From assembly GCA_921293015.1 (NCBI GenBank), contig OV121096.1, positions 21,587,729 through 21,651,728 of the forward strand: DNA of 64,000 nt. Reading direction: 5' to 3'. Each line of letters opens with the position of its first letter. Within the stretch, counting starts at the first letter, position 1. Source of the stretch: Phorcus lineatus (taxonomy: Eukaryota; Mollusca; Gastropoda; Trochida; Trochidae). The position numbers were made by a program, and so were the translations under genes. Shown here in pieces: positions 12,610 to 59,641 of this stretch. Below the pieces are notes generated by a model that made no database searches, was not told the origin of the DNA, and saw only the letters and a program-made list of their open reading frames with translations.

Positions 12610-13512
12610 AGTGAGGTTGAAGCACGGCTTGTATGAGAAACCGAAGCCGACTGTATCTACCAGCCGTACCGCAATCAATTCAGAGCGAAACTATTTCATC
12701 GGCGTTCATCATTAATCCCATAATCACGATGACTATGAGGACAGTTACAGTGTATACCACACGTCCAAACCGATTTCATCCACTTCTATATAGAAGAAGG
12801 CAGCAGTTATCCAACTTTGTGAAGAGTAGCATTTTTCCGAATGAAGTTCGTTAGGATGGAAATATGCACATGCTATCATCATCAACATCATCGTCACAGT
12901 GTGCTTTCAAAAGAGGAAGCGCTAATAACAGGAAGCGTATATCAAATAAAATTCATATCCTTACAAAAAATGTGTAGCTTTGAAGTAAATGAGGAAATGC
13001 TTAACATCGGTTCGCCATGCAGTAGCTCCATCGTCGTAGTATTTCAATAGTGGAGGTGTGATTCACATATATTCTGGATATCCAGTCTTGTCCAGATTGA
13101 ATAGTATTTCACTTCCCACTGTGGCCAGTACCGACTTGAAGGCTCGTTCAACGCAACACCGGCTCTGATGTCACTTGTTTAATATTTATAGTGTCTGTCA
13201 CCTTACGTAACAGACATAAAGCGATTTAATCCAGTTACAAGGGGATGAAACAGGGTTCCCCATCTACATATATTAATCAATAGAACGACGATGACAAGTT
13301 ATACATGTTTCAATAGAAATGAAATGCTACGCTGTGGCCTGAGAATGTTGATACTTATCACAGAAAATGGGGAGGTCAGTTCCCCAAAGTGTGAAATGCT
13401 TTCATCCTTTATTTTGGTCTCGGTACAGCATATTAATACACATGATACATAATGACAAATTATTATTACAATATGAATTTTGACATTTTCTAAGTAAAAA
13501 ACGTGTGACAGT

Positions 13513-23709: not shown

Positions 23710-24590
23710 GATAAAGCATTTTCTATTATCTAGGAATGGTTTGGCCGATTGAAGAAGGTCAACACCATTCGCGGTTCAGTGGTTTGCTGATGTCTTTTCA
23801 AGAACCAGCGTATGTAGATATCATTAGCAAACACATAATGCCTATTCTCGATTTCACGGTTAAGACAACCAATCCTGGGAATTCTTTAATCTGAAATCTA
23901 TCATGCTACATAGTGAACTTGTGAATAATTGATGTACCGCCGTAAATATCACGGGAGCAACAATGATAAATATTACAAGTATATAAAACAACAACAAAAA
24001 CAACAATAATAATAGTAAAAAAAATAATAATGAAATCGATGCATAATTTCACTTCGGTGCTTTATGCTTACAAGACAGTGTCAATATAGATTGAGTATTA
24101 CGAAAAATAGTTTGGAAGAAAATGATAAAGCATTTTCTATTATCTAGGAATGGTTTGGCCGATTGAAGAAGGTCAACACCATTCGCGGTTCAGTGGATTA
24201 CTGATGTCTTTTCAAGAACCAGCGTATGTAGATATCATTAGCAAACACATAATGCCTTCTCTCGATTTCACGTTTAAGACAACCAATCCTTGGAATTATT
24301 TAATCTGAAATCTATCATGCTACATAGTGAACTTGTGAATAATTGATGTACCGCCGTAAATATCACGGGAGCAACAACGATAAATATTACAAGTATATAA
24401 AACAACAACAAAAACAACAACAACAAAAACAACAACAACAACAATAATAATAGATTTAAAACAAATTAATTAAAATGAAATCGATGCATAATTTCACTTA
24501 GGTGATCTATGCTTACAAGACAGTTACATGTATGATATAAACTTTTCTATAGATTGATTATTACAAAAATAGTTTGGAAGAAAATGATAT
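23710..24590. repeat. Tandem duplication, about 414-bp period
   Basis: The units starting at 23710 and 24124 both open with 'GATAAAGCATTTTCTATTAT' and share 'GGAATGGTTTGGCCGATTGA', 'ACCAGCGTATGTAGATATCA' and 'GTACCGCCGTAAATATCACG'. Each ends in an A/C-rich CAACAA tract of different length. A diverged relative of the first half lies at 29190-29420. Confidence 0.92.
24402..24452. repeat. (CAA)n microsatellite
   Basis: AACAACAAAAACAACAACAA-type sequence sits in the second 414-bp unit. The equivalent tract in the first unit (23988-24015) is shorter and runs into AAT repeats, so the tract has expanded since the duplication. Confidence 0.85.
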
Positions 24591-34938: not shown

Positions 34939-35602
34939 CCTTGATGATGCGATGGTTAGCAGGCGGGCGGTACTGATAACCTTGATGCTGTGATGGTTAG
35001 CAGGCGGGCGGTACTGATAACCATGTTGCGGTGATGTTATCACGCGGGCTGTACTGATAACCATGTTGCGGTGATGTTATCACGCGGGCTGTACTGATAA
35101 CCATGTTGCGGTGATGTTATCACGCGGGCTGTACTGATAACCATGTTGCGGTGATGTTATCACGCGGGCTGTACTGATAACCATGTTGCGGTGATGTTAT
35201 CACGCGGGCTGTACTGATAACCATGTTGCGGTGATGTTATCACGCGGGCTGTACTGATAACCATGTTGCGGTGATGTTATCACGCGGTCTGTATTGGTAC
35301 TCTTGATGATGCAATGGTTAGAAGGAGAGCTGTACTGATAACCTTGATGCTGTGATGGTAGGCAGGAGGGCGGTACTGATAATCCTGATGATGTGGTGTT
35401 TAGCAGGCGAGCTGTACTGATAACCTTGATGCTGTGATGGTAGGCAGGAGGGCTGTACTGATAAACTTGATGATGTTATGTTGTCAGGCGGGCTGTACTG
35501 ATAACCTTGATGTTGTGATGGTTAGCAGGAGAGCTGTACTGACAACCTTGATGCTGTGATGGTTAGCAGGAGAGCTGTGCTGATAACCTTGATGCTGTGA
35601 TG
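34939..35602. repeat. 40-bp minisatellite, about 16 units
   Basis: The consensus unit includes 'GTACTGATAACC', 'TTGATGCTGTGATGG' and 'AGCAGGCGGGC'. Six consecutive 40-bp units at 35021-35260 are identical ('CCATGTTGCGGTGATGTTAT' plus 'CACGCGGGCT' and 'GTACTGATAA'); the flanking units are diverged. Identical inner units with varied outer ones indicate recent expansion of a single variant. Copy number may be underestimated if the assembly collapsed it. Confidence 0.97.
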
Positions 35603-36949
35603 TAAGTTTACATTTAAGTAACATTTTGTATCTGAGTAATTTTGTTTCTTTACAAAGAACATTATTTGCGTTAGGTTAGGCCAATGGTATCTCAATATCT
35701 CAAAGTTTTGAGAATATAAACTAATCTTTTGAGAGTTGAGTTCAACTTCATTCTTTTTCCTAGACGGATCGTTTTAAATAAAATGTTAGTGTGAAAGGCT
35801 CAAAATATCTAAAGGTGAAATCATCTATGTTAAACTTAAGCTCAAAAGCAGTGCAGAGTAAATATAGTAATATTAAATAAAGATATATATAAATAAAGGA
35901 TAAATCCGGTAAAGGAGTGTTATTCATTTGATGTCATGTCCCTTTATCCTTGTAGTCACATACAGGAAACATTCTTCCTTTTATATTTATCCATTTTGAA
36001 TCAATGTATCACTTCAAATTCAATACAATGACAATATGTTCATTAAGACCACACCTTGAGAGAAAGGTGCCTGAAATCTGAAACTTCCATGCGGTCATGT
36101 TTATATCAAAAATGAAAAATGACATAACTTTTAGATGTATCTTGATATACGACTAAAATATTGCTCCGATATCAACACATCGGTAGAATAATGACTTCAC
36201 ATAATGCTAGGTCCATTGTTTATTCTATCTGAATTATTTCTTTGCTGTTATTTTGCTTTAGCAGACGAAGGACTCCATCATATCGGACTAACAGATTAAA
36301 GTATGTAATTATTTGAAGTAAACTTTAACCCTGGGTCACATCATGAAAAGAATTGATAACGGGGATGTTGGACAAATTCCGATTAATAGATGAAACACAC
36401 CAATTGTTTTGTGTGTATCAATCATTCCAAAGTGAAATGATTTCATCTTTTAGTTTTGTATCCACTTAAGGACGCTGTTTGTCTAGCTTTTCGGAAGGAG
36501 TGTATATATTATCTTTTGCTATTTACAATTTGTCTGTGATTTGTGGTTTGTTAAGTATTCGCAGTCATTCGAATTCTTCATACATGGCATGTAAGAAATT
36601 ACACAGATATTGAGAAACAAATCCAAATTCCAAAAGAGACTGCTTTTATTTCTAATCTAGCATAAGCAGTTTAAATCGTTCAAGAAAATAATGTCTTTGT
36701 TTATTTAGCAAAGAATCCAATCTTAAATATTCAATCACTAACTCGTTGGCATTATAATCGCCATATATGGCTATGGCACAATTACTTAAATATCAGCATC
36801 TTCATTGGAATCACTAGCATACATTTATGCACTCATGGTATAAACACTGTATGATTTGAGCTCTCTCATCATTTTGTTTATGATGTACGCTTATAACAAG
36901 AATCATCTTAAACTTACTATTTGCAAAGAAATTCCTCAAGAACATACTG

Positions 36950-39828: not shown

Positions 39829-40100
39829 TCACAGATTGCCTCTGCCGTCACTGGTTCCAATGCCATTCATTTCTATTTGCTTCTTGTCTTTGCATTCTTT
39901 TATTTCATCACAGTCAGACTTGTCTGGGCTTAGCGAGTCTTCTTCTTCGATGGTTGGAACAAGGCTACCGCGCATGCGTGCCTCAGAGAGATTGGAGAAG
40001 GAAGGGCGAGGGGACAACCTTGGAAAGTCCTTCCGGTCATCGAGAAGTATCACAGAAGCATTGTCTATCTTGATCTTGCATTTGCTTTTCCCCGCTTTAT
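39829..40100 (-). CDS. HVCN1-like: Proton channel exon 8: acidic C-terminal tail and stop
   Basis: The acceptor 'CTACTACTTCAG' opens 89 codons ending in TGA at 39829-39831. The tail is hydrophilic: basic 'KAGKSKCKIKIDNA', then 'PRLSPRPSFSNLSEARMRGS', an acidic 'PTIEEEDSLSPDKSDCDE' and 'NGIGTSDGRGNL'. Several Ser-Pro sites could be phosphorylated. Human Hv1 ends soon after the coiled coil, so this tail is extra. The alternative is that the exon belongs to another transcript, but the phase match with exon 7 and the strong acceptor favour this model. Confidence 0.68.
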
Positions 40101-43100
40101 CTGAAGTAGTAGAGATTTCAAACATAATTTGTATGCAAAAACATTTTTCCTTAATTCTGGCTATTGTGATCCAAGATCATATAAATAATTTTTTCGGAGC
40201 CGATCATAATACTGATCGGCTATCTCTTTATTCCCTTATGCGAAAAATATGACTTACTCAAATATTTCATCATACTTGTTAAAAATGTTAATCGATACTT
40301 TATGGACATAGGCGCTTCTGTGATAAAATCTTTTCTAATTCCTGTGAATTTGCTAGCATGTTTTAAACGTGGAGATGCTTGAACTCACTGGCTACATATT
40401 CGTCAATACGCAGGAGTTGTTCAACTCTCCACTCATCCACACCCTCCGAGATGCATAGTTTCCGTAATGCATTACACTGAGCCTACAATAAAAACACAAT
40501 GTCCTGCTTTACAAAGTATAAAGAGAATCACAAGTGAAAGGAATCTGCAATCAATTACTTCTATCTATGATCATGAAGTTGTTACTGTTTAAAGAGCCAC
40601 TCCGTGAGTTGATGGAGTCACATATGCCAAACTTAATCAATGGTATCATTTGATCACGAAGTATCGACTGTTACCAAAAAGATTCATTTTAAAACTAATT
40701 AGTTTTGTACAGTGACAATACGAAGATAGAAAGTCTCAATTATGATCGAAAACCTGGAGAGTTATCTAAAGCCCCCAGGAGGTCAGTTTGGAGTTGATAG
40801 TGTTTGTTATGTCATATAACTAGTATCCATGTACATTGAACGTGTATAATCTCCGCATCTGTGTATTTATAAGGCTGTTTTTAGATTTCCATCGAAAAAC
40901 AGTATTCGTCATATTTTTGTCCTTTGGAGAGGAAAAGTTAAGATGTTTTGAATTTATATCATCACATATGACATTTAGGTTCGTATCAAAGCCAAATAAT
41001 ATGTTATGAAAATCACGGACTGGCTCTTTAAATAAAAGCAATTAGATTGCGGTTTTATTTGGAATATCATTTAAGCTGCTGAAAAAAGTTCTTATTTATA
41101 TCATATTTTTTTTAAATTGTCACCATTTCTTAAGATAATGCTTTACACATAAAACCTTTAGATCAATAGGTTAACACTTCATGTCTACACTACATACACA
41201 AAGTAAAGATATATGAGTGTCCATGACTTACTATGTTCACGACACGAGTGCTTAATATTAGTTTTACCCGAGCGTAAGCGAGGGACATAATGCCGTAAGG
41301 CACGAGTGTCGTTAACATAATAGTAGTATGTCATGGGCACGAGTATGATATTCTGTTTATGACGGAAATCAAAGACACTTATCAAAATCAACATCTATAT
41401 ATATAGGCATAAGCGCATTTGGAACACAACGTTATAGGCGAACTGTGACGTCAAAGCATGGTTTTTGTCACAATAAAAAAGTGATATTTTGCCCTAGGGC
41501 ATCGTATGCAAAATATGATCCCCGATATGATTGCCCTCGTAGGTAATAAGTGATACTCCGTAGACAATACCGAAAAGAGTACAAATTTATAATTTAAGAT
41601 TTAAATAATTTTGCACAGAAATATTAATTAAAACAGTTTCGGCAAAATTTCGACAAAAATAGTTAACATTGGTTAACATTATGACATACATCATGTTATT
41701 TTGAAATACTAAACATTTTATAAGAAAATTAAACGTTTCTATTTTGTTTACATTTTGGACCACACCTTGCCAAATGTAATCTTATACGAATATGAATTTC
41801 ATATCTTTGTATGTGATGAAAAAATAAGATGGCTTATAATGTCAAACGTTAGCCAACACCCTAATATCAGGATATTTGCACCAAACAGTGTGAAAATATT
41901 TTATTCGGCAGGTGTATAGTCCAGTTGGTTCCAAAAATCAACCTTTTATCAGCTTTGAAGGATAATACACACACTTTAAATGATGTAAATAAGTTTTCAA
42001 AATTACGTTTGAGTCACCGGCGCGCGTCATTGTCCGGTTTTCGATCTTAAATCCAAATATAAACTATTTATTGTCACTATATCGAAATGATAAGCATTCT
42101 AATGGCAATTTTCAGAACGATCAGTTTTTCTCGGTGAAATAACGTAACTCATGAGGTTTTAAAGATTTAACTCGAACAACATACCCTTTGTCCCAAAATT
42201 TTAAAGCAAGATGAGCTAGATATTTAAACTTAAAACAAATACAAAAATTGCTTGTGAAAAATATTTTACATGTGGAAAAGTTTAATAAACTTACCTTAAA
42301 TATTTGCAATTTGACCTCTGCATCTCGGAGGCTATTCTGAATTTTTTTCTTTCTGCTATAAACAAGCTTCAGTCGGAAATGTTCGTGGTCTTTCACGGCC
42401 ACAACCAAACCTAGGAACAAGTATAAAGGTCATAGCTAACATCAATACAGTAATCACTTTAGGGCATATTCCGGGGACTCTTTAAAAATCAACATGTAAG
42501 AAGCTGTTTCTAATTAACAGGGCAGAAGACCAATGGATGCAGAACTATTCTTATTTCTATGTGTAACAATTCCTTTTTGAAGAAAAAACAACTTATTTAT
42601 ATTTGATCATAAAATATAGAGTTTGATAAATGTGTGTTCATTGATGTGTATATAAGACCTTAAAACAAACTTTTAAAGATGATTCTGCTACATTTATCCA
42701 TCCTCAATAATCGCTGAATGTCTTCAAGGGACTTTTCTAATATTGTACAGTTGATAAACATCTTATAAATAATTTAAATCTGTTATTCCTTGTTGAAAGA
42801 GAAGTAACTAAATGATACTATTATAAAAAAGAAAAGGGTTTGGTTTTAGTCGATTTGACCGCGTGGAATATAAAACATTTAACAAACATTTAAACATCTT
42901 GTTACATATATCAAGCCTATTTAGTCAATAATTGTCTTCAAAGGACTTTGTCTCATACTGTATATTGGATATAAAGCAATTGAAATGATTTAAAATCAAG
43001 CAATTGTCTTAGTAAAAGAAAAAGAGGACCAATGGAACCTACATACTTTATATAACTATAGCGAGAAGAGGCAAATACTGTGAATGTAATCAGGGGAATC

Positions 43101-45232
43101 AGATTGATATACCCTATATGCACCTACATATACCACACGGTTTGAAAGTATGAAACACTACTTAAACAAATGCAAAGAGGTGATACACTTATGTTAATGC
43201 AATAATCGTTTCTCTCTATGTACTCTTGTCATTTTTATTAACCTGGATATCATTATACCTAATTATCGGCTTCACGTGTAATTACAGCAGTTCACATGGA
43301 GTGAATCAAACGACTTCCTTACATGATATTTCAACATCAAGGGCTCAGATATCTCAATTAACCCCTTCTAAAAGGGAACTGGCGCGTAATGCATGGTATC
43401 CGAGGAATAAATTATGTTTGCATCAGTGAAGCAGATGTTTGTTTTAAAGTGAAATTTTATGCAATATTGCTATTTAAGAGTTGCTACAACATTTGTTGGC
43501 TATTAAATCGTTTTGTTTCATTTAAACAGGAACTAAGTTTCATACGTCCTATATACAACACTGTGTGCAACTCTGACTTATAATGCTTGTTTTATTTCGG
43601 TATGAAAATATAATTACCTGAGCAAGTTTGCTATGTAACTTGTTTTACAAACTAGTGTGATTTAGTGGATTATCCGAGCGAGAGCGAGAACATATAACAA
43701 ATTTGACATCGCTTATAATTCATTATAAGGGTATTGGAATTGAAATTTAAACAAACCATCACAATTTGGTTTGAGTAGAAGTTGAGAGCACGACAATATG
43801 AAAAACATAACATCACCTATAAATCACCATATGGATAATAAAATCTAAAATGAAATGAACTATCGACATGTGTTCTTAATAAAAGTTTAGAGCACGAAAA
43901 TATTAAACATCGTCTATGTTTTACCAAATGGGTAAAACAAAATCAAGAATTAAATAAAATACCAGCATATGGTATTATCATATCTTTAGTTCAATGAATT
44001 GTATTTATATTTTTCATGGACTTACTGTTGACAACTCGTATAACCCTCCAAGGCAACAGGAAGGCCAATATGAAAACAAAGTCCTGTATCTTGTATCGTG
44101 GGAGACGATTCAAGAAAACCAGATCCACCACAAAAGACACGATGACGATGAAGGCATCAAATACCTGCAAATTCAATACCTTTATTGTTGTAATAGGCAA
44201 TCGTTATTATATCATTTATTGGTAAGACACCTTTTTTCTTAGTCCTTTCAGAAGAGATCTGTTTATGTATGGTTGCATCACACACTACTTAATAATTGGC
44301 GCTTTCGCACCTTGTGAACACCTTTTTCAGATCAATCTCATTAAAATGAGATCTGAAAATCCTTCAGTTTATTGATATTCCCCAACTAGATTGCTTCTTC
44401 GCTATCAAACTAACATATTAAAATAGCCTATCTAAAGTTATGTAGAAAAAAACGAAATTTGAGCGAATGGGTATATTTTATTTCAATAAGATTGCTTTTT
44501 AGCTATGACCTGTTTTATTTATTTGATACTTTTGTGACTGAAATATAAACCTCTTAAAGGATTCGGACATACTCAATGAATATGTTCACAATATCGTCCA
44601 CACATCTAATAAATTTAGTTCAAATATGAACTTCTGCATTACACAGAGGAGTTGAAAGGGGTTTCGTGTCAGATATGATCGACGTTGTGTATTTCCTAAT
44701 GATACCGGTAAATACTAAGATGTTGAAAAAGGAAACAAGGTATTGAGCAATATCTGAATTCTAATTTCAATGTATCCGAGTGTTAAGAATAAGGCACTTA
44801 AAAGGAACAGTAGCACGAGCTTTAAAGAAAGATAAAGCGATCTCAAGAAAACAAAAATAAATGTTACCGAATGTAAGGCTGTGTTCGATTAAAAAACGCT
44901 GTTCAAAACGTAGCATGTTCAGTTAAGCTATAGAAATCCATTTCCCTAACTCATACGATTAAAAGGTGTTCACACAAAAATGGCCGCCAGCTGTTTTTTA
45001 AATTTTTTTAAATATATACTTTCTGGGATGACTACAGAGGGCAAGGTTGAATAATGATATGTTTGACCCTCGGAAGATAATGCATTTGTCATAAAATAAT
45101 GTTTACCGTGAACAATTGGAAAAAAATAAAATTTTCACAAAAGTACTACTATCCCTCTGAAATTGAAGTTGATCAGTTAAAAAACGCAGGAATCTGGTTA
45201 TGTCTTTATCTAATTTGTGTTACTTTGAGGAA

Positions 45233-45292
<60 letters not shown>

Positions 45293-48200
45293 ACAAAATA
45301 TTATATTACCACACTTTTAAATGTTCCCCAAACATATTACATAGAGAAAACGGGAAGCCATGGTTAATCTGGTTTGGCTATTTCAAAGAGTTCTTATTTA
45401 GTTGTTTATACAATAGGAAATAAATCAATATTCAATTAGTTCCGTTAATATGCACACGGAGAAAGCAACACTAATAATATGATTATGATATTTAATGATG
45501 TTACTGTAACTAATAAATAGCTCATATGTTTCTTCCTTTCGAGAATAAAAATGCGTAATAGGTTTTAGGTAATTCAACTTCCATTGATTAATCCATCAGG
45601 TCCATTTAACAGCTGATATGTCTGTATCTTCAGCTTAGAAATCCCAACTGAAATCAATTTTGCACATTTCGGTTTTTAACGATTTGAATTCGGCATGGGT
45701 TACGTTTTGTTAGAACAATATAACCGGGAATCGCAATTAAGATATAAAAAACACATTTAATCATGGAAATATCAATCAACTGAAAAAGATTGTATTACAT
45801 TTCGAATTTGTGGTACATTTTGACGAAAAGTAAACAGGATTCGAACAGGATCTGACAAATGATTATTTCGTTGGAGGAACTGATAGAGTATACAAGAAAT
45901 ACATTTTATGGGCATAAATGTAAGGAGATAAAACTTAAAGAGTTTATTAGTTAAGAAATCTGTATGGGCATAAATGCAAGTATACAAATGACAAAAGAAA
46001 TGTTCAGCGTCGGTAAATAAATCATGTAAACTTTACATAAAAACGTAAAATATGCACATTGAAGCATTTGACCTTTGAGAGCGAAATAATCAAAGCAGGA
46101 TATGATCGAAGATAACTTTTTGCGATTTTTTTCTGCGAATTTGTCCTTCGATTTGTATTGCTAAAATATATATTGTACAAGAAATAATTTTTTCTTTCTC
46201 TTTGGAACTCAAAATATATTGATGAAAATATGCTTTTGGCAATTGTTATCGCTGCAGTTTATAATGACATTATAAGTGAACGAGAAAAATGCATGTAAAA
46301 TTATAAACCTTATAAAAGTAAGATGATAGTTAAAATAATCCTCTGTGATATTGCGATCTTCTTATCATCAAAGCACGAATCACACTTACTTCAAGTTTAC
46401 GATGGCAGAAAGGTGCCCCGACACATACAGCCTTCAGAACCGTCTGAAACCGAAAATGAAATGAATAATAAATAAATGAATAAATAATAAATAAATAACA
46501 CCCATGATATAAACTTCTTTCGCACAGAATGTCAAATCTCTATTACTATCGTGTTAAAGCTTTGCTGCCTTGTTAAAATTTCTATGCCAGTTCTTTAGGG
46601 AATTGTGCCCTTACTTCATAGTTTTAAACAACGAGGTAATTGGAGGTTACTGACAGTCGTTGATAAGGGCACTGTGGTCAAACAACGAATAGTGACCTGT
46701 CAGCAAGGTTTCGATGAGCCGATAAATCAGACTGGCGCTTTATATGCCTTCCCGGAAACTTTGACATTATAAAAGCTATCAGTAGTTTTGTATTAAGATA
46801 GAACGCGTGTTAAATGTCAGTATGTGAAAAGACTTAGTAATTGTTAGAAAATGGAAATAATAAAATCAATAGTAATTATGATTTAATTGCATGTGTTTGT
46901 ACTAACATATTTAGTTGTAAATGTCAAGTACGTGTACTTTAAAATTTGAATTCTGTATTTTAAATATATAATGATCGATAAACTTGAACTACTTATCATT
47001 AAACCTTAACCTAAAGGACTGATTTTTATTTTAAGTCATGAGGTAAAATGAGGTAAGCAGTGTTCATATCGTACTGTCATATCACTTTACAGTCAAATGT
47101 TTTTTAATTTTGATCATAGCAAATGGCATGTATTTTGAAAATGATGATTCCGCTAGAGGAATATTACAATTACATCTAGAATAAGAACATAATCATTACA
47201 AACTTTTCTAATACTTTGAGATCCAAAACAATTGAAACAGATTCTGAAAATAAACATTTCTTTCCTGTATTTAATATTATTCAGGTCATATACAGACATT
47301 ACAGAAGCAGATGATGGTTTTATCGCTAATGATTGCTTTATCTTTTGTAGCCGAAGATGAAATCCATATTGCATATCATTTCCCGATGTATTATTTGTGA
47401 TGATTTACCATTACTTTTCAGTCACAGCAAAAATATAAATGGTCTCAAGTATTTAATGAAATCTGATGATTACATTTTCATGTTTAAAAGATTCTAATAT
47501 AACCTGTTTCGTTAACTAGAAGAAACCCTTTAATGCACATGATTATTTATTTTCATATATGATATATATTTGATGTATTATAATATGGTTCAAATGTCCT
47601 TGGAACATTAAAGCCCTTGAATTGATTATGTACTTATATAATTTTAGATACATATCCGTGGTTAACATCAACAAATGCTATCAAATGACACCACTTTTCA
47701 AACATAAAAATATCAGAAAAGCTTTCAAATCTTTTTAGTACGAAAGTCTATGGTTACATTTTTTACTTTGATCTGGTAACTTGAAATATATAATATATCA
47801 TTTTCACCATAACCGACATTATCATTATCTAAATTATCATCATGATTATTATCTAAAATCCTTATTCAAAACTCTTGATCGAAATGTCGGGTAAAAACTG
47901 TACCTACAGGAAATCTTATATTCCCTTGATGACGATTGCAGGGGCTAACGGGATGGGTGTATTCCATTACTTTCAACTAAGTCAATATACCTACAGGGGA
48001 TGCGGCGTGCCAAGATTTCTCAATATAACAGCCGAGGTGAAATTGCTTCCGATTAGGAAGCTTAACTAGACTTGACCAGATCCCTTTCTATTCGATCTTC
48101 CATCTCATTCATGGTTCGGAATGTGATTTATCACTTGTTCCTACAGCGCTATAAATGAAGAGTTTGGGCAAATACAACCGCTATTTAGCTACTTCTTGAC

Positions 48201-51200
48201 GTATTGTCTCAACCTTTAAAAGACATGTAACAAATAATGCTCGGGGGAGACGAAAAAGCTTTTTCTTTCAAGTTAAATATTCTGTAGCGAATGATAATTC
48301 AACACTGACAGATTGCGCTTCAACTTTTGATGAATATGTCTAAGTTCACTGATGAGAATTATCTGAACAGTAATGAAAATGCTTGTAAGGCAAAGAAGAC
48401 GTTCTGAAAAATTGATAAGGTTAGAATATGTAGGCTCATTGTAAAAAATAGTTAAAATGGAAAATACCAAGAGAACATTCCATGAAACTGAAATGTAACG
48501 ATATCATCTCCCTTCAGAAGACGCATAAGTCATTTCTGCACTTGTAAACTTTGTGGTTAACATTTTGGTTTACATTTTGGTCTTGAGATGCAAAATGATG
48601 TTTGTTACAATCAAAGTTAGTTGTGCAACAAGCGATGTTATTTAACTATGCATTCTTTTTGATTTTTAACTATTGACAAGACGTAGTTTTATCCACATGT
48701 AAGATGCGCAAAACCTCTTATAAATGGGAGAGGTCAAACAGAGATATTTGACGAAGAAGTGCCCATTAGTGGATTATGAAAGAACAGTGGTAAACACCAT
48801 CTTCTCCCTTCTCATCTTTAAGTTTGCTTTAAGTCTGCTTTAAGTTTGCTTTAAGTCTGCTCATCCGCCAAAATTCATGTTGATTTTGAATGAACAATAA
48901 TTGCAGGTTTTACGGAAATGATAACTGTACATGATTATCTATCCTGCGTACATGAATCCGCTCAGCTCCTTCCTTATACCCTGATCTCTTTCGGGCTGAT
49001 CTCATTCAACTTCAGCAATGAGTCTAACCCTACCTTTCGAAAAGGAGAATTTGCGTTATAAGCTAATCATATGATGATACATTGTTGTCTGAGGTTGTCT
49101 GTCCTTGTTGACTGGTTCTCACACCACCCACTGACTATCTTCCTCCGTAATGATTTATAACCATATGACCATCTGCACAGCAACACCCTATAATCAGCTG
49201 TGAATAATGAATTATCAGATCCAAAATGAGATTGAAGACCTACATGGTTACGTTTATGTCCCACCACATTGATTCATTCTATCCAAATTGTAAAGTAGAC
49301 ATTATGTCTGCGGCTGATTCAAGAACAAGATTAACGGATCATTCGTTGTCTGGTGGACCATCTTAAAATGGACACATTTTTGTTCGGAAGAAACATCCTT
49401 GCGACGGCGTTAAGGCGGTATTACGCTTCGCACCGGACATAATCGTTTCATCATAATTATAGACTATTCATCATCGTCTTTTATTGGCTGCTATTAGTGT
49501 TGTTGTTGTTGACACTAAGGTCTCTAGGTGGTCTAAAGGTAATCTTTAAATAACATCCAAGAATCATCCGAAAGGATTTCTAGAAAATATAAATTTGAAT
49601 GTCGAAAATTATATGATACTTAAAACGGCAGAAATTAATATGTCTATTAAGCACCATAAATTGATGTTAATTGACACAAGACATAAAACTACCTCTCTAA
49701 TCAAACCTTGAATTTATCTCTATTCTCTTTTTGTATGGAACTATATTTTACAAGTTGATTTTTGTATCCATGTTTGTTGTAAATCTTTTTTTTTTTATCA
49801 AATAAAGGGTACTGTGGAGCCTACGTACTCTGTAAAGCATTTGTAATGTGTTTGATATTAGTCAGGCACCGTACTCTGTAAAGCATTTGTAATGTGTTTG
49901 ATATTAGTCAGGCATAAGAAAGATTGATTCAAATAAGCTTCGGTGAAAAATTCCCGACATAGCAAAGGTACCAAAATATCCCCCTCTATACTTGAGGTAA
50001 AGTAAAGAAACTCACATTTCGACTTTGCTGTACTCGAAGTATTACTTTGGTAAGTATATGACATATGTGTTAGGTATGAGATAGGTTTCATACATCTAAT
50101 ACTAATTAAAGCGCCAGTAGCACGTTTATTACCTATCCAAAATTATTCAACGGTTTTCACACAAAAGTGACCTCCAGTGATTTTCGCTTTATACTTGTTT
50201 ATTTCTTCAACGACCACGTATGATCGGCCTGAGTAAAGATGTGTTTTATCCCTCACTTTTGGCATAAACTAGTTTTATTGAGGAACAGCTGAAAAGGTAT
50301 TGTTTAAAAAAAACGGGACTGCACTTTTAAAGAGAGGAAGCATTATATACTTTGTTAGCGTAATCATGAAAACATGAAGGTTAATATCTTATAAGTGTTA
50401 GCTAGCTTAGTCAGGTCATGACGCGGAATATGATAAAACCATAACAAGATCACTGATAATAAATCGAGTAGTGTAACCAATACAGCGTTGATATAGTAAA
50501 CATTGTAAAACAGTATGTAAGTTAAATTGAACATTTTCCCAGCAATATTCATCTATTAATATATAGAATTATCAATAGATACAAAGAATCATATTTGAAG
50601 GGCATATATTGTTTTAAGAAAAAAAGATTGTAATTTTCAATGAAGCTCTTGATTCTTACCTCAAAAACCAGAAGAGCGAGAATAGTTATACTGGCCAGAT
50701 GGAACGCATGCGCGATGTCATCTTCAACTCGATGGTCCATGGAATAATCGTGCATATCCGGTACGTATGCTGTTCCACCTGAAGTGTTTGTGAATATTTT
50801 CACCGTATAGCTCTGATGTCGGGGATATTCCTGTTCACTCACCCTCTTAAAACGTGTAACGTTTCTCCTAATGAACACATTCTCTGTATGCTCGCTGACA
50901 TTGGACGTCCTATCTTTCCATGTTATATTCGATTGTAAAAGTTTCTCAAAAATCGTATGCATATTGGAGTTGTCAAAATCTTTCACATTCTCTGGGTACT
51001 TCCTGGATAGTTCCAGCACGAACTGGTCAATCATTCCCTGAGAATTTTCCAGTGTATCTGAAATGGAAATTTAGATTTAAGATTAACCATAAATTGCTCC
51101 TAGTAGCAGCAAACCCTTTATGATAACATAATCAACATATATTAACAATGAGGTTACAATTGTCATCATTTGCATAAATACAAATTTGTTCTTGATGAAG

Positions 51201-51904
51201 GCTAAATATAAATTTAACACGATATCAGTACGTTCCAAAAATATAACCTAAAGTATATAGCATATCTATAAACGTTCAATATCAATATTCTTATTTAAAG
51301 ATTTCTCACTTTGATATAAATGCAAAATACCAATCATATCTTTAGATTTGTTCATTTACTGTAAAGGTCAATGCTAACAAGAAAATTTCTCTCTACCATC
51401 ACCTGAAAGCAACTTACTTAAAATTATGAAATATTTATATCAGATCACTAATTTCGTTTTAATGCTCAAAGTATAATTAATGATAAACGTCTAATGTGAA
51501 CGAAAATGTGAAATGAATTTCTTATGGAATGATAAACCTGAAATTTCAGATAAATGCTCACATATCCAAACTACTCTGAGTACTGAATGTTTCAAGAATA
51601 GAACTTTCTACCACAGATTTCTACGGCAAAGAAGGCAGGTTGAAGATAAAGTAACAATATCAAGTAAATAAATAATTCAAAAATAAGGAATGAGTAAATA
51701 ATTCTTTAAAAACATAGTCAACAAACTCATTTAATGAAATGAATTCAGGAATTGCTTATATCTAGTTACCAAAACAGTAAATGAAACTACCAACATAACC
51801 TTTGTGTACGATTGATGATGTGTATGAAGGAATGATTAAATAATTCTTTCGGAACTTCAGAACAGTCAAAAAGGCATTTACCAAATGGAACTCAGAATTG
51901 CTTT

Positions 51905-51961
<57 letters not shown>

Positions 51962-54900
51962 GTGTGTGTGTAGGTGTGTGTGTGTGTGTAAAATCTTAGT
52001 ACCTTGCTTCAAAACGCCATGATAAAATTTGAGACAAATATCGTGTGATCAGAACAATTAACGTTTATATTAGTCTTCTACAATCTTTGAAAAACAATAA
52101 AATGCATTCTGCATTTTTTCACATTATCTATAACTCCATGTAATTAATGCATATCATATCTGCATCTATTCATCAATATACGAATAATAATTATTCCCAT
52201 CTATAGAGTAAAAGAATACTAATTCTGTCATGAAAACAAGTCTTAAGGTCTAAGAACTAATTCGGTTATGGTTGGCAAACTTTCTGCGCAACAAGGCATG
52301 TCAAAATGGTTCATGAGAAATGCAAAGATACTTTGTAGGCCTGGATGATGGAAAATCTCCGCGTTCCCGTGAGGGTTTACAATGACACCATACCAAAATC
52401 AAAGCTGATGGGCCTGTCTGACTCCATGCTGTCCACTTACCAAACACAGGCTTAAAATGTCAGGCAGGGATTGTCAGACTTCTTGCGCATGCTGAATGGT
52501 GCCTCGATATATGAAAACCACTGCAAGTCAGTGCCCCTAGTCTTCAGTTGTTTGATCTCCAACATGATACATAATTTAGCTCCTGGTTTAGTTTTTACTG
52601 ACATTTATCAAAATATCAAGTTGCAGATCAAATCGTCGAGTAGATTACGGGTTGTGTATGTAAATATATAACATTATGTTGTTATATTTATAATATTTAT
52701 TATGATACAAAATGTTTTTGTTTTTGATATATCGGTTAGCTTTGCAAAAAGGCTCAGAATATTTCATTTAAAGATATATTGGTTAGAAGAAAATAAGACA
52801 GTGTTCTGCGGAATATATATATGTTCATTGGTGCCTTTTATATCTGTTTTCATTCCTTTATGTAACGTTGGTTTTTAAAATCACAAAATCATACTTGAAT
52901 AACAAGCTTGAACTCTGAAGGTTACCATCCTTATATCCATTATATTTTAGTTTCAGGAAATATCTCCGTAAATAATATTTTGTTATTGTGCTGGAAATAA
53001 ACGGTAGCTCGATGTCATATTTACTAGTCAGCACTATTGGATAACGTATGACGTCAATGCATCGACACCTTTAACTCTCAGTTCCCGATTTAGAGGTAAT
53101 ATTGAAAAACAGAACTATTCGGAGAAATTAAGAAAACCAAAAATAGGCAGAAGGAAACAACCCTACTAGGCTAAAAGTGATCGAATTGATGTAATACATA
53201 TTTGTCAATAATCAAAGGAATTTTTATTTCACAGTTTCACTGAAAAAGGTCAACTTTGTCTCCTCAATGGTCTGTAATAATTGTAGCGTAAAACTAGATA
53301 TTCTAACACTCAAATTTTATCAAAATGCTTACTTATAACGCATAAAATTATTAGAGGTGAATAACACACTCATCAAAGAAAAAAACAAAATACAATTTAC
53401 ATATAAGCAAAATCACAGACGTATTAATCTACAGAAAAATGTGGAGGTTTCAACTTCTCAAATTACCCTTTCTCGCCATTTATTCACGGATATTAATCTC
53501 ATCTTTAAATATCAAACCTAAGCCCCGTCACTTTGATTAACAGTTAGTTAGCTAGTACAGAGACAGTTAGTTAGACAATAAAATTATGCTTGTCAATATT
53601 CAAGTATGAAGGTCTTTAAACTTTACAATAATGATAGAGAAAGCCAGTTCGTCAGAGAGAACAATATTGAACCCCCTATAAAAATAATCCTGAGAAAAAT
53701 TGACATTTGATTTCCAAATTCTAACTTTCAAACTTGCTACTGTGACAATTTTTTGAGAATGCTATCGCCTTCATTCAATTTCCAGATATTGAAGAACGGA
53801 GTTATTTGCGTAAAATCCTTAATTGTTTACCTTATTTATAAAGTATAACATGGAACATGATGGTTGACAAGGTCAATTATAAATAGAGTTTGTTAAACAC
53901 ATTAAACTGAATATCTAATTATTCATTCAGATTCCAGAAGGTCTTCTTGACCTTTGACTTTAATTGACAACTTTAATTTTTATAATATCACTCATTCAGA
54001 CGAGGTGTCAATGAAATTCTGTACCTATGCGGTTTTTCATCTTCGTAACTAGTTTAAACAAAAGGAATTATTTTTCAAATTGAGTTTCACAGATGTGTGA
54101 ACAGTTGTCACATATGCTCGGCCATCCCAGGCATACTTGCAATTTCCTGCACCTCCATAATGGAATTAGCAGTAATGAAGTAATTTTTTACTACAAAGTT
54201 GAATAAAAAGGAAGGGTGGTCTAAATTTGTTTTTAGACCAGTACGAACAGTACCAATTGAGAAGGTATATATGGTCAGTTCTGGCGACTGAAGGTAAGTA
54301 TAATGTAGATATGGTCAGCTCCTTTTTCTGACCAAGTGTAAGCTGCAGTAATTACAAGGCACGAGAAAGTGTCGCCATCTAAATAAGTTATGAAGCAGTT
54401 AACTTGACGATGGATAAGACTTCTTTAAACCTCTGTCGGTTCTGCCGAGAATAGTGTCGACCAATTCACATGCAATTCATGACTTTGACGAAAGAAAGTG
54501 TGATGTATTAAATATTCACAGAAGTAATCAAATTGACAATCCGCCACACGCAATAACATGGACGACAAGAGGCTGTGTGAACTTAGAAGAAAATCTATCA
54601 TATTACCAAATGAAATTATATGGTCGTTTCTCATCGTACGAACCCCTAACTGAATTATGGTAGCACCTTGAAATGTATGCCAATGGTCGACTTGTAAAGA
54701 CGGTTTCAAATCATTGTTCCCTTTTATGAAGAAGTCCACGACAAAGGAATAAAGTAAGCATTTAATTGCTGACAAAAATGAATAATGAAACCAATGATAT
54801 TGATATTTCACAGTCATATAATTGTTGTGAACCATATTAGGAAAAATAACATAATGAATAAATTATTTGCCTCGTTTTTGCGAGTTTTCTTAAGCAAACA

Positions 54901-57900
54901 CGCTTCCAAACGCCACCATTGTGAGTTAATTTATTGTTTCTGTACCAGGTTGTCATAGTGAGATTAACGAAGAAAGGAATAGATTGTATAGCCTTGGTGA
55001 AAGAATGCTAACATCGATATAATCTGCTGCTTTATTTGATAGAAATAAGCCACTGGAAATCAGCGACGTCGGAAGAAAAGCGCGGTTTTAACCGTAACGA
55101 TTGATCCTTTTTTAGAAGTCACGGAAAGAACTTGCCTGCCATCGTAAATCACTTTCTTCACGGCTCAAGCCAAATATATAGTGCATACTTGCGTGGAAAC
55201 GAGCTCTAAGAAATGTTCCTGTTCGACTTTAAGAAATCCATTTGAAATGTATTGTTTTAAGGTGCTTTTAAATAAGCATAGCTAATATGAATGAACAAAA
55301 GGGAATATCTCCTTCAAATGTTTCCAAGCCAAAATATTACAGTATCTTGAAAAACTCTGTAGAAACACTTAATACAACTGCTTGGTTGGAACGACATATT
55401 CAATGAACAATAACATTTATACTCATAAGTGAGAGAAATATTCACACTATAACATAGGATTATCATTCCTTTAACTATGTCTGGGTTACTAGCATACAGC
55501 AGTGTCGTACAGGGGGCAACAATTGCCACAAGTCGGGCAATATCCGGTCAGGCGGAAGGCGATACCAATCGATAAAGAGACAAAACTAATCGATAACTCA
55601 AACCGAATTCCAAGATATGAACTCGAGGGGGGCTACAGATTCGAGAGCATTCATTCATCTAAGAGCATGATAGTGGTTTATTTCGGAAATTTTCAACCCG
55701 TCAATTCCCCAGGGACGGATTTAATTCGGTTGAGCGTCTTTACGGCGAGGTTCCTCCAACGTTGAAACGGAACTCATTCAGGGAAAAGAAACCGCTTCAT
55801 TGTTTATCAATACGAGTAGATAGTATGAAGCCTTAGTGTAACAGTAGTCAACAAAAGACTTATACTGTGCATAAGCAGATGATGTAACGGTGATATACGA
55901 TATCTAGTAACGGTTAGACATAACAAAAATGGATACGATAAAAAATGCACATAGGTAAGGATTTGATTACAAAACATTGATACACCTTTTACCAGCTTCA
56001 GAAAAAAGTACCTGTGGAAACGTCTGCGGCGTGAATATAATTATACCTGTGAATCGATCTTTCAGTTGAATCTACTTGAGAAAATTGTCCACCACTAGAC
56101 CTACATTTCTCATTGTCTTTTGTTATTTGATAACTACTACGCTATGACATTTCATTACAATAACAATTCCCAAACAATAAAAAATCAATGGCGATACCAG
56201 GCTTACAACAATGACACACATAAATCACCCACACGGAACTTTATAAAAGTTGGCTTTTGAACAAGTTTCCTCGATTCACAAATCCATCACTTGATGAAAC
56301 AACTATAGGACCTATAATAATGTCCTGGAAACATCTAACCTGAGTAAAGATTTCTCTTTCATCACCTTCTATTGAGCTGTAGTCATGCATATTGAGGCAA
56401 TATTGATCTTTGAGCACATTAAGGTTTAATTGGCCACTAAACAAACGTAACAATGATCGATGAGTTTATTACGATGGCGTTGCTCGTTTATATCAAGCTA
56501 AGTTAATGTCCGTACGAAAGAAAGGGTTATGCACTTGGGAAACATACTGTGCATAGAAAGTCCTGATTGCTTTTGTACTTACGCCTCAATAAAGTCAGAT
56601 GGGTTTGGAATCGTCGATTGATATATCAAAATAAGGTTTGAGTAGAAGAACTTCATAAGATGTCGTCATTCTTAATTTGAAGGAGGCAAGGAGGTTGCTA
56701 AACGAAATTCAGTGTCATACTGTTTTCATCAACAACATCAGTGATGGATGAGTCAGTTAACTTATATTATGTTATCAAAACATTACATCTTTTTCACGCT
56801 TTTGTTTTAAATGTGTTGTGCTAACCAGCTGCCTAATTTATTATGATAAGGTTGTTAGTTGATACGACTAGAATGTTTCCACAAGGTTTAATTTGCCGCA
56901 AAATTATCCCCTAAATTAGATTCAATTAGAAAAATGGAATATTAATTACAGTGAAGTGTTTTAACTCAAAAATAAATAACTGTTATTTTAAGAAAGTAAT
57001 TTTGATTTTTAGAAACTGATTTCTTCCAAAATAACATTTATAATAAATAATATGTTTATCAAGAAGATTGAAATCGACCCATGAAATGCCCTTTAGATGT
57101 TTACATTACCTCCTACACAGAAAAAAAGCATTACTGACTGGGGGCCATTAAGCCAATGACGTCATTGCCATGATTTAAACGAAACTCATTCCTGATGCTG
57201 ATAAAGCTCAGGGTTGTTCTGCACACAATAATTATGTATTTTCAAACAGTTCGTCAATACCGTCATGACATTACATTGCTAACATAAAGAAGGCTTATAG
57301 ACAAAAACTCGTGAATGATAAAATCTACAATGCATTTCTAACAATAATGACTACGGAGGTGTTCCAAGGCTGGCATTGTGAGACTTGTGCATTTGAGATT
57401 TTGATATATGACTTCTTTCTTCTAAAAAGTATCTTGTGTTTCTTTCAGTTAATGTCTCTCCACTATGTATATACTTTTACTCCTCCCATATCATCACAAT
57501 AATGAATAGTAATGATAACAAAAGTAAATATACCGAATATTAGATGGTCTTTTCATGGATTATTGAATAAGTCATATAAAACAAAATGGTGATTAATGCA
57601 TGAACATGTTTACTGAACATTCGTGTGTCTTTAATTGGATGTTTCATACGTTTGGGAGTGGAAGGTTATAATCTGGACAGTAGGGAACATACTATGAGAA
57701 TTCGATGGTACAAAGGTTGTCTAAAAATGTGAATGAGACAGGGACAGATTTAGACAAACATATTTTTAATGTCACCTTGCCTATAGCACCTAACACAGTT
57801 TGACCAAATGATGTTTGAAATACTTTAACAGCTGAGATAGTCAAATAAATAACATCCAAATAATTATAGATTCAGATTTATAGCTATGCATTTAGACACC

Positions 57901-59641
57901 TGGCTACGGGACGTTCTACTTTCATGCAATTAAAAAAACTACAGACAGAGAAAATAATTAAATAATCTAATTATTTAGTTGAAATGAAAAGCAGATATGG
58001 TTAAAATTCAGACAGAGCCATCTTGTTTGACACCTTGAAAGAGCGCATGTTTGTTGAATCAATGGAAAAATTGCAAAATAATATGTGAAACAACGTAACC
58101 GTTACCTTTAACCTTATGAAGGTCGAGAATTAGTTCGCCTAGAACAAGGGCACAATCTGTCACGCAAAAGAGGACGACTGTCAACAACATGTATTTGCTC
58201 TTAAGGATCTTCTCCCCATCTCTTCGCCACCTGAAAGAAATGAAAATGTTCTTTGTAAATATGAATGATATTATATATTATAGAACAAAGAGTTATCATT
58301 TAAAGGATCCCATGATGAAGGAACACTGAGCATCTTCACAGGCAGATAATGAGATTTTCATTAACATGAGTGGACATAAAAACCTATTGATGATTACCTT
58401 TGTACATATAGTTTATTTGATATATCATCAAGGCACATAATATAAAATGATATGATATATCGATGGATAGTTATCATGATTATGTACATCGAGCAATGAA
58501 TTAATATCACATAATTGCAATTAAAACAATGAAAAAAGTATGTCGGAAGAAACTTTTGATGAATAATGACTACAATATGAAAATAACAAAGGAACATGTC
58601 CAGTTGTAAATTTAGATTATATGAAGGACAACTTTGTACATTAGATTTATACCATATTATACAATATCTGAAATTCATGCTATAGTGTTGTAGACAGGAG
58701 AAAAGGGATATATACGATTTGACAAGCCACTCGTGTGAAAGGATTTTCAAAATGTAAGTATGACATGTTAAGACAGCTTAATATCTCAATATAGAAATTG
58801 ATCATGAGAGGGGAACATAACTCATTCATATGTCAGATATTGTACTTAGTATAAGCGTTAAAAGTGAATATCACTTGAACACAAGTTGAAATTCAATTTT
58901 CTCAACGTCATAATTTTTATCAGACAATTGGCTTGCACAATCTTATCACTGAGCATTTTTAAAACCAAAACATTTTAGAACACATCCTTGGTAAACTGTG
59001 AAAAAAGGCATGACATTAATTCATCGTTTCTTAATGAGCAGAGTTTAAAAGAGGCGGACAGATCAGATATAAATCTATTCTAGTTTGAAAAGCACTGTTC
59101 TAGGTGCACAAGAGCATTTTAATTTCATGGAAGAATCTGGGAACATTATTCAGAATAATAAACGGACGAAACAAAAATCAATTGAGCAAGAAGCTGGCAT
59201 CCTTTTTACCCTTCCACACCTGATCAATAGTTGGTTGCATCAGTTGCTAGTCCTTCGTGTTTCAAAATCACAACTACACTGAAAAAGGAGCATTCGTAGT
59301 CCAAATAGTCGCACATAATGCCTGGTTAATGGAATACAACATTAAGTGCTATGTAATCTGAATTTCAGCACAGTGCAGAGGTTTCAATTTCAATGTAAAA
59401 TATTCATAATCCCAAAGAACAAAATGTCGACACTATGAGCTCTGCAGGCTCCGAGCTATAGAACAAAACCAAATGAATCTATAACCTTGAAAAGATCTCA
59501 GATAATTGACATTGCCAAAGACAGAACTAACTACCAACTTGGCTCTACGTCTAGAAAATGAGATGACTTAACGTACTCCTCATCGTCATACTGGCATCGG
59601 CTTGCTTCAAGTTCCAGACTTATCGTGTCCCAGTCCTTCAT
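39829..59641 (-). CDS. HVCN1-like: Voltage-gated proton channel (Hv1/HVCN1 family), eight exons, 420 aa
   Basis: Eight minus-strand exons (59577-59641, 58106-58230, 50660-51057, 46390-46443, 44026-44164, 42295-42410, 40389-40482, 39829-40100) join with GT-AG sites and matching phases (2,1,0,0,1,0,1) into 420 codons plus stop. Hv channels are two-subunit voltage-sensor proteins that let protons leave cells. S1 has 'CVTDCALVLGELILDL' (residues 44-59; D47, E54 and D58 equal human D112, E119 and D123). S2 has 'AFHLASITILALLVFE' (181-196; H183 and E196 equal H140 and E153). S3 has 'FDAFIVIVSFVVDL' (D217, D228). S4 has 'LLPWRVIRVVN' (R254 and R257 equal R208 and R211). Changes: human R205 is L251, F150 is L193, H168 is R211 and H193 has no His. 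The S1-S2 loop is about 120 residues (usually around ten), and human Hv1 is 273 aa. Human numbering is from memory. Confidence 0.92.
40363..40388 (-). other. Read-through alternative end of exon 7
   Basis: If the GTGAGT donor after exon 7 is skipped, the frame adds 'SEFKHLHV' and stops at 40363-40365. That would give a protein of about 338 residues without the acidic tail. Whether this isoform exists cannot be told from DNA. Confidence 0.4.
40389..40482 (-). CDS. HVCN1-like: Proton channel exon 7: C-terminal helix
   Basis: After 'TTTTTATTGTAG' the exon reads 'AQCNALRKLCISEGVDEWRV' and 'EQLLRIDEYVA', leaving one base before a consensus GTGAGT donor. The phase fits exon 8 (A+AT, Asn). If the donor is not used, translation continues 'SEFKHLHV' to a TAA at 40363-40365, a short alternative end. 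The exon has no strong sequence match and rests on splice sites, phase and helix-like composition. Confidence 0.72.
40593..41027. mobile_element. TTAA-flanked MITE, copy 1 (channel intron 6)
   Basis: The ends are inverted repeats, 'AGAGCCACTCCGTGA' and 'TCACGGACTGGCTCT', and both flanks are TTAA (40589-40592 and 41028-41031). A second copy is at 63490-63955. The interior has no transposase. TTAA target duplication is typical of piggyBac-like transposons, so this may be a non-autonomous relative. The element ends only about 110 bp from exon 7's acceptor. Confidence 0.88.
41940..42115 (-). repeat. Inverted fragment related to the TTAA MITE
   Basis: 'TTACGTTTGAGTCACCGGCG' and 'GTCCGGTTTTCGATC' are the reverse complement, with changes, of the internal 'GATCGAAAACCGGACAGTGG' and 'AGTCAAACGTAA' part of the copy at 63490. 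That internal part is missing from copy 1 at 40593. The terminal repeats are not seen here. Confidence 0.55.
42295..42410 (-). CDS. HVCN1-like: Proton channel exon 6: post-S4 coiled-coil region
   Basis: The acceptor is 'CTTGTTCCTAG' and the donor AAG/GTAAGT. The frame continues from exon 5 (A+GT, Ser): 'SLVVAVKDHEHFRLKLVYSR', then 'KKKIQNSLRDAEVKLQIFK'. The pattern of a short hydrophobic end of S4, a Lys/Arg-rich helix and heptad-like hydrophobics corresponds to the start of the cytoplasmic coiled coil that pairs two subunits in known Hv channels. Confidence 0.88.
44026..44164 (-). CDS. HVCN1-like: Proton channel exon 5: S3 and S4
   Basis: The exon encodes 'VFDAFIVIVSFVVDLVFLNR' (S3), a short loop and 'FILAFLLPWRVIRVVN' (S4), ending AAC A/GTAAGT in phase 1. 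W253 and N260 match human W207 and N214. Two of the three S4 arginines are kept; the first is Leu followed by Pro. A second in-frame acceptor 15 bases upstream (after 'AATAAAG') would add 'VLNLQ'. The shorter form fits family spacing better. Confidence 0.92.
44165..46389 (-). other. Channel intron 4
   Basis: AT-rich sequence with a TA microsatellite at 45231-45290. I see no exon or recognised element in the rest. Confidence 0.6.
45231..45290. repeat. (TA)n microsatellite
   Basis: Near-pure TA run in the channel's intron 4. Confidence 0.95.
46390..46443 (-). CDS. HVCN1-like: Proton channel exon 4: S2-S3 linker, 18 codons
   Basis: A 54-bp exon between 'TCGGTTTCAG' and 'GTAAGTG' encodes 'TVLKAVCVGAPFCHRKLE'. 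It aligns without gaps to the human S2-S3 linker: K200 is K157 and E214 is E171. The pair corresponding to human H167-H168 is H210-R211, so the His reported to matter for pH-gradient sensing is replaced. It is phase 0 at both ends and too short for standard ORF listing. Confidence 0.9.
46455..46500. repeat. AAT/AAAT simple repeat next to exon 4
   Basis: 'AATGAATAATAAATAAATGA' and similar sequence lies about 12 bp upstream (on the gene's strand) of the exon 4 acceptor, within the region where the branch point would be expected. Confidence 0.8.
48820..48862. repeat. 12-bp tandem repeat, about four copies
   Basis: 'TTAAGTTTGCTT' and 'TAAGTCTGCTTT' alternate, giving a higher-order 24-bp period with a T/C difference. 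Confidence 0.85.
48946..49000. mobile_element. Half copy of the 5873-6176 MITE end
   Basis: 'TGAATCCGCTCAGCTCCTTC' and 'ATACCCTGATCTCTTTCGGG' match the right terminal region of the element at 5873-6176 (read on the other strand there, 'GAATCCGCTGATCGAGCTCC', 'TACCCTGATATCATTCGGG'). No opposite end is seen. Confidence 0.7.
49825..49916. repeat. Two-copy 46-bp tandem duplication
   Basis: 'GTACTCTGTAAAGCATTTGT' plus 'AATGTGTTTGATATTAGTCA' and 'GGCA' occur at 49825 and again at 49871 without visible differences over most of the unit, a recent event. Confidence 0.93.
50660..51057 (-). CDS. HVCN1-like: Proton channel exon 3: long S1-S2 loop and S2
   Basis: This 398-bp exon follows a 'CCATTTCAG' acceptor and ends GAG/GTAAGA. 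It encodes residues 64 (shared) to 196. The first roughly 115 residues are an unusually long, hydrophilic outside loop with four N-glycosylation sequons (N107 'NIT', N116 'NVS', N129 'NVT', N154 'NTS') and an 'RFKR' basic site at 132-135 of the furin type. The exon ends in S2, 'AFHLASITILALLVFE'. Typical animal Hv loops here are short, so the exon seems to have gained a domain. I do not recognise that domain. Confidence 0.92.
51058..58105 (-). other. Channel intron 2, about 7 kb
   Basis: This long AT-rich intron contains a TA/TG microsatellite at 51903-51990. Around 52330-52540 a GC-richer patch reads on the minus strand as fragments such as 'WFSYIEAPFSMRKKSDNPCL', perhaps a decayed transposon protein. 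Open frames at 54425-54835 (minus, 136 codons) and 55502-55765 (plus) have no recognised domain and no convincing splice context. Confidence 0.55.
51903..51990. repeat. (TA)n followed by (TG)n microsatellite
   Basis: TA dinucleotides run to about 51960 and then change to TGTGTG with one AGG interruption. Confidence 0.95.
58106..58230 (-). CDS. HVCN1-like: Proton channel exon 2: S1 with selectivity Asp
   Basis: The acceptor is 'TTTCTTTCAG' and the donor GTAACG. The exon encodes 'EWRRDGEKILKSKYMLLT' and then S1, 'VVLFCVTDCALVLGELILDL', very close to human S1. D47 aligns with D112, the residue known to set proton selectivity. The downstream 'HKVK' begins the extracellular loop. It ends in phase 1. 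Confidence 0.92.
59577..59641 (-). CDS. HVCN1-like: Proton channel exon 1: start and short N-terminus
   Basis: The ATG at 59639-59641 has an in-frame TAA upstream at 59660-59662, so the frame cannot extend further within this exon. It encodes the acidic 'MKDWDTISLELEASRCQYDD', then Glu and two bases before a GTACGT donor (phase 2). The N-terminus is much shorter than in human Hv1. This exon was placed by splice phase and the start codon rather than by similarity, so it is less certain than the membrane exons. Confidence 0.7.

Follow-up and report, generated by a model that had tools for sequence, protein, structure and literature searches.

A probable HV3-type proton channel gene of Phorcus lineatus and its paralogues in the same genome

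Among the Hv proton channels of molluscs, a published review describes conventional members of 200-250 residues that carry the S4 motif RxWRxxR/K, and an "unconventional" HV3 group in which the S1-S2 loop is very large, the intracellular domains are much larger and the S4 motif is xPWRxxR (PMC10377628). According to the same source, a bivalve species can have as many as eight channels of the unconventional family, Aplysia has seven putative Hv channels, and beyond molluscs a few species of brachiopods and phoronids have Hv channels with a proline in S4 (PMC10377628). The best comparison for the present work is AcHV3 of Aplysia californica, which carries LPWRxxR, is proton selective and leaks in the closed state (PMC10377628); its conductance curve is reported to be shallow, at about 60 mV per e-fold, and its leak is explained in the literature by its S4 motif. 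The related AcHV2 is disputed, being described either as lacking the first S4 arginine (R1), like AcHV3 (PMC10657467), or as keeping RxWRxxR (PMC10377628). The accessions listed for AcHV1-3 are XM_005100609, XM_005093050 and XM_005094218 (PMC11853527). Here we describe an Hv gene, termed gene A, on the minus strand (59641-39829) of a 64,000-nucleotide stretch of the Phorcus lineatus genome (C37:21587729-21651728, hereafter the window), and we propose that it is a functional HV3-type gene whose product is likely to be proton-selective, weakly voltage-gated and leaky when closed.

The residues that keep an Hv channel shut have been described mainly in human Hv1, whose numbering is used below (R1, R2 and R3 are R205, R208 and R211). 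The hydrophobic gasket consists of V109, F150, V178 and V179, a more polar gasket is reported to leak, and in simulations of the human channel the closed state shows a barrier between R1 and D112 together with a break of the water wire at the gasket (PMC11853527). The human mutant R205W has a closed-state leak, faster opening and reduced voltage dependence, and its authors compare it with AcHV3 (PMC11853527); histidine at R1 likewise gives a closed-state leak (PMC13095418). In the review, Phe150 is treated as conserved in Hv channels and His168 as critical for the sensing of internal pH, natural Gln or Ser at the latter site being linked to faster channels (PMC10377628).

Gene A was rebuilt from the raw exons and consists of eight exons with a coding sequence of 1305 nt (434 residues). 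There is no internal stop, all seven introns are GT-AG, and the frame is kept at every junction, as a preliminary description of the window had held. The GC content of the coding sequence is 0.44, compared with 0.306-0.373 per 4-kb bin of the window. The exons are as follows:

59535..59641, minus strand: exon 1, the ATG and the cytosolic N-terminus (MKDWDT...VEPS), with in-frame stops upstream of the ATG; donor TTG/gtagtt
58106..58230, minus strand: exon 2, S1, with the selectivity Asp D61 (equivalent to human D112), the equivalents of E119 and D123, and Cys at V109
50660..51057, minus strand: exon 3, a long extracellular S1-S2 loop with four N-glycosylation sequons, then S2 (equivalents of H140 and E153, Leu at F150)
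46390..46443, minus strand: exon 4, 54 nt, the S2-S3 linker TVLKAVCVGAPFCHRKLE, with Arg at H168
44026..44164, minus strand: exon 5, S3 (D174, D185) and S4 LLPWRVIRVVN (R205 to Leu, L206 to Pro; R208 and R211 kept)
42295..42410, minus strand: exon 6, the end of S4 and the beginning of the C-terminal helix; donor score 7/7
40389..40482, minus strand: exon 7, the end of the C-terminal helix (LRKLCISEGVDEWRVEQLL), with a similar peptide in paralogue B (see below)
39829..40100, minus strand: exon 8, the cytosolic tail and the stop codon, placed by phase and splice-site fit

Exons 4, 6 and 7 were located by search. Exon 4 came out top of 61 splice-compatible candidates compared with the human linker, with a score of 21 against 12 for a longer form of the same exon and 9 for the next independent candidate. 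Exons 6 and 7 were found by scans of the region past S4; when the C-terminal candidates were ranked by similarity to the human coil the true exon 6 was not top, and the model was settled by splice scores, phase and exon 7. A simple score of the heptad a/d positions in the C-terminal region was reached by 71 of 2000 shuffles for gene A, by 4 for paralogue B and by 544 for paralogue C, whose C-terminal region is incomplete. The least certain parts of the predicted gene are the start of exon 1 and the C-terminal exon 8, neither of which is homology-supported.

The 434-residue protein matched the human Hv1 structure 5OQK (E = 1.8e-11) and 3WKV (E = 1.6e-7) in phmmer, the latter being a mouse Hv1 chimera; a match at E = 2.6e-22 was set aside because its query contained 18 human residues. 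The crystal structure of a mouse Hv1 chimera has been described (PMC13095418). The likeness to human Hv1 (HVCN1, 5OQK) lies in the S1-S4 voltage-sensor core, where 45 of 130 aligned residues are identical, and the difference lies in the S1-S2 loop, which is about 100 residues longer in gene A. The protein has the four-helix voltage sensor without a pore domain that characterizes Hv channels, and its frame ends past the C-terminal helix and tail. The phmmer match to 5OQK excludes a chance resemblance to Hv1, and the earlier assignment of the gene to the Hv family holds. A point against it is that the 434-residue protein gave no Pfam match at E <= 1.

Gene A retains D112, E119, D123, H140, E153, K157, D174, D185, W207, R208, R211 and N214. 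The preliminary description had rightly seen that the selectivity Asp is kept, although its number in the rebuilt model is D61 and not D47. Five positions are substituted: Leu replaces both R205 and F150, Pro replaces L206, Cys replaces V109 and Arg replaces H168; in addition, the S3-S4 linker contains no His, so that H193 is lost. Four of these changes (those at R205, F150 and H168 and the missing H193) had been pointed out before and are borne out by the alignment, while Pro206, the change of the gasket at position 109 and the long S1-S2 loop are additions of this work. The S4 segment reads LPWRVIR rather than RxWRxxR, with R1 missing and W, R2 and R3 kept. This probably marks the HV3 type rather than exclusion from the Hv family, because channels with LPWRxxR are counted in the review as Hv channels and as working proton channels (PMC10377628).

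In addition to the S4 motif of the HV3 group (xPWRxxR, in the form LPWRxxR), gene A has the large architecture of that group: exon 3 measures 398 nt with four sequons, and the protein has 434 residues compared with the 200-250 quoted for conventional channels, the length of the tail depending on the predicted exon 8. Given the published distribution of Hv channels with a proline in S4, the sequence by itself points to a lophotrochozoan source, most likely a mollusc. As far as AcHV3 has been described, the two have in common the Leu at R1 followed by Pro, a large extracellular S1-S2 loop and enlarged intracellular parts. The kinship in type with a leaky Aplysia paralogue that had been suggested earlier is consistent with the shared motif and loop, and the same two features, as they occur in leaky AcHV3, lend support to the altered, possibly leak-like gating proposed at that time.

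Searches of the organism's own genome (957.8 Mb, 74 contigs) were carried out exon by exon with protein queries, and all Hv counts given here are minimum numbers. The preliminary description had called for a search for further Hv genes, and at least seven were found besides gene A, i.e., at least eight in total, of which at least five carry LPWRxxR (A to E) and at least three carry RLWR (an Hv1 on contig C15, G and H):

Gene A: the window, contig C37, minus strand; LPWRxxR
Paralogue B: C37, about 21.94-21.96 Mb, about 0.3 Mb from A, same strand as A; LPWRxxR
Paralogue C: C17, 19.78 Mb (C17:19784001-19794000); LPWRxxR
Paralogue D: C37, 3.557 Mb; LPWRxxR
Paralogue E: C37, 3.690 Mb; LPWRxxR
Hv1 on C15: RLWRVTR; one open frame spans S1 to S4
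Gene G: C1:50198740-50204240, minus strand; RLWRITR
Gene H: C1:50160868 region, near G, minus strand; S4 RLWRVPSVCN

Four copies of the LPWR exon are thus located on C37 and one on C17, both of which are large contigs. The S2 of D and E and the S1 of E were assigned by position and strand; the S1 of D was not found within 4.8 kb upstream of its S2, that of H was not sought separately, and the comparison of the paralogues left aside the terminal exons 1 and 8. In one search, two of 14 rows (on C11 and C5) were dropped since they lacked a W(R/K)xx(R/K) motif, and rows on C12 (one of 6 rows in another search; 8 stops), on C39 and C32 (two of 8) and on C7 and C19 (two of 4) were left out of the counts.

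The exon structure is largely common to the paralogues. A, B and C agree in the lengths of exons 2, 4, 5 and 6 (125, 54, 139 and 116 nt) and in the exon phases, and exon 3 varies (398 nt in A, 416 in B and 326 in C, with identical phases). The 125-nt exon 2 is also found in E. An exon with the length and phase of exon 4, preceded by AG and followed by GT, is present in six other genes (B, C, D, E, G and H), and exon 5 comprises one base in addition to 46 codons in all seven genes (A, B, C, D, E, G and H). In D, E, G and H, exons 4 and 5 match those of A in length and are likewise flanked by AG and GT. Between A and B, identity over 163 aligned codons is 0.589, 0.816 and 0.350 at the first, second and third codon positions, the same order is seen for A-C and B-C, and the compared blocks contain no stops; this is what is expected of a protein-coding gene that is under constraint. 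Identity between A and B is about 21% over exon 3 (the loop) and 67% over the S3-S4 exon.

In a MAFFT alignment of gene A, the human fragment and paralogues B and C, a three-residue length difference was placed beside W207 and Ala came to stand opposite R205. We rejected this placement. It is Leu that stands opposite R1, because the 46-codon exon aligns without gaps in all seven genes with the same intron pattern, including the RLWR genes G and H, which have R1.

The LPWR and RLWR genes separate cleanly at positions 205/206 and 150. At 205/206, Leu-Pro is found in A to E (5/5) and Arg-Leu in the C15 gene, G and H (3/3), and at 150 the residues are L, L, L, M and L in A to E (Phe in 0/5) versus Phe in all three RLWR genes. 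At the S1 gasket position 109, among the genes with S1 read, C, T, N and A occur in A, B, C and E, respectively, versus Val in the C15 gene and G. Loss of R1 thus goes together with loss of the gasket Phe in 5/5 LPWR genes and of the S1 Val in 4/4 read, although the LPWR set may be one evolutionary event, so that the counts cannot be treated as independent. Position 168 (R, R, S, K and H in A to E; H, H and K in the C15 gene, G and H) is not tied to the LPWR motif. Three residues are off the pattern: C has Ile in place of E153, E has Gln in place of E119, and gene H is without R3 but has R1. Because they are shared among the LPWR paralogues, Leu205-Pro206, the non-Phe residue at 150 and the altered position 109 are to be regarded as features of a clade and not as errors. 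The substitutions listed in the preliminary description are accordingly real, but for the most part they are not peculiar to this gene: Leu205-Pro206 and a residue other than Phe at 150 are found in all five LPWR genes, and position 168 varies. The literature searched, which did not extend to the primary HV3 paper and its supplements, contained no mention of an absence of Phe150 or Val109 in HV3 channels, and we do not claim that the observation is unpublished.

Three of the paralogues deserve a description of their own. Gene G resembles A in its 54-nt exon 4, its 46-codon exon 5 and a long stretch rich in sequons and His before S2, and differs from A in keeping R205, L206, F150, V109 and H168; its gene architecture is HV3-like and its sensor conventional, and it is a possible candidate for the state before the loss of R1 (pre-HV3). 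Gene H keeps R1 and R2 and the Phe150 in S2, has Ser at R3 and has Glu in place of D185; the natural R3 variants named in the review are Lys and Gln (PMC10377628). In paralogue C, E153 is Ile, Phe150 is lost and Asn stands at position 109, which by eye is the most altered gasket of the set.

On the basis of these residues the following mechanism may be proposed. Protons would pass selectively through the voltage-sensor domain via D112 and R2 (R208). Loss of R1 would remove one of the three S4 gating charges, giving weak voltage sensing and a shallow, shifted gating, and would also remove the closed-state barrier between R1 and D112, and the altered gasket would let a water wire form more easily. 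With R1 gone and the gasket altered, the closed channel would thus be expected to leak, the loss of R1 and the loosened gasket acting together. Such a channel would probably serve to load acid, or to provide a steady acid-base leak, in particular membranes, and not purely to extrude acid on depolarisation. Of the Hv1 zinc site (H140 and H193 with acidic neighbours), gene A lacks H193 and keeps H140, E119 and D123, and its S1-S2 loop carries extra His; an outright insensitivity to zinc was rejected as a claim because those three residues are kept. Arg168 may alter the sensing of internal pH, but this site varies among the LPWR genes.

Several points weigh against gene A encoding a leaky HV3-type channel. 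The LPWR genes form one group with support of 100/99 in trees of nine rows (the five LPWR genes, the C15 gene, G, human Hv1 and 3WKV, with gene H left out) when S4 is included, and the grouping is weak (64/68) when S4 is left out. Cys109 and Leu150 of gene A are still fairly hydrophobic, so that the gasket may hold. Membership in HV3 was assigned from the described motif and architecture, AcHV3 being compared by description, and the function of the gene product is a prediction from sequence.

The loss of several conserved gating residues, together with E153 to Ile in C and E119 to Gln in E, could also be read as the decay of an Hv paralogue into a pseudogene or into a voltage sensor without conduction. 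In gene A, however, frame and splice sites are intact over eight exons, exon lengths (with the exception of exon 3) and phases are kept in A, B and C, second codon positions are far more conserved than third positions, D112, R208 and R211 are retained, and AcHV3 is reported to conduct with the same motif. The pseudogene reading was rejected on the grounds of the intact frame, the shared exon structure and the codon-position constraint, and decay or loss of conduction is improbable. Still harder to sustain is the idea that gene A is a conventional Hv1 whose odd residues result from an assembly error or from a wrong or missing exon. It is true that the model was built without RNA and that exon 4 is only 54 nt long, but exons of the LPWR type occupy five positions on two large contigs, six other genes also possess the 54-nt exon, and RLWR genes exist separately. 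Errors of assembly and an alternative S4 exon had been named in the preliminary description as findings that would overturn it; both were rejected, since five separate genes carry LPWR in the 46-codon S3-S4 exon.

It may also be considered that the protein is of the HV3 type but that its main site of action is an intracellular compartment, or that it works through its large loop and tail in sensing or binding, the leak being incidental. The long loop with four sequons and the long tail fit such a role, and an intracellular localisation has been raised for molluscan Hv channels (PMC10377628). The loop, however, diverges far more between paralogues than the voltage-sensor core (A-B identities as given above), and we consider this role unlikely, if somewhat less so than decay. 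A functional, leaky HV3-type channel therefore remains our preferred interpretation of gene A. One step beyond it, we put forward more tentatively, as a possibility we would not favour on balance, that the leak of HV3 channels is a built-in and selected property arising jointly from the loss of R1 and a rebuilt gasket, neither being sufficient alone, and that alongside its conventional channels the animal retains a graded series of leak channels. On that view gene A would belong to a group of five or more tuned leak channels encoded in this genome.

The remainder of the window was scanned with Pfam for 139 of the 175 listed open reading frames (ORFs). One ORF matched ANF_receptor (E = 2.9e-5), and one gave a weak match to Fry_C, the Furry C-terminal domain (E = 0.0011). 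Two exon-like ORFs picked by eye, 1678-1881 and 12406-12690 (minus strand), resemble the ANF_receptor ligand-binding region as in receptor guanylate cyclases. The segment 26323-26598 (minus strand) appears by eye to be a remnant of a non-LTR (long terminal repeat) retrotransposon reverse transcriptase, with no Pfam match. Near-identical ORF copies are found at 23715-23891 and 24129-24305 (plus strand), 414 bp apart (SIFYYLGMVWPIEEGQHHSRFSG...), to which no transposon or family was assigned by name, and at 34939-35603 a 40-bp unit is repeated about 16 times as a minisatellite. Over the whole window, Rfam gave no matches and a tRNA scan found no tRNA genes.

The HV3 leak type itself is already known, and the new point is that across the paralogue set a rebuilt gasket accompanies the loss of R1, which makes the cause of the leak directly testable. 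A to E provide a natural series at positions 109 (A, B, C and E), 150 and 168 for asking what keeps a proton channel shut.

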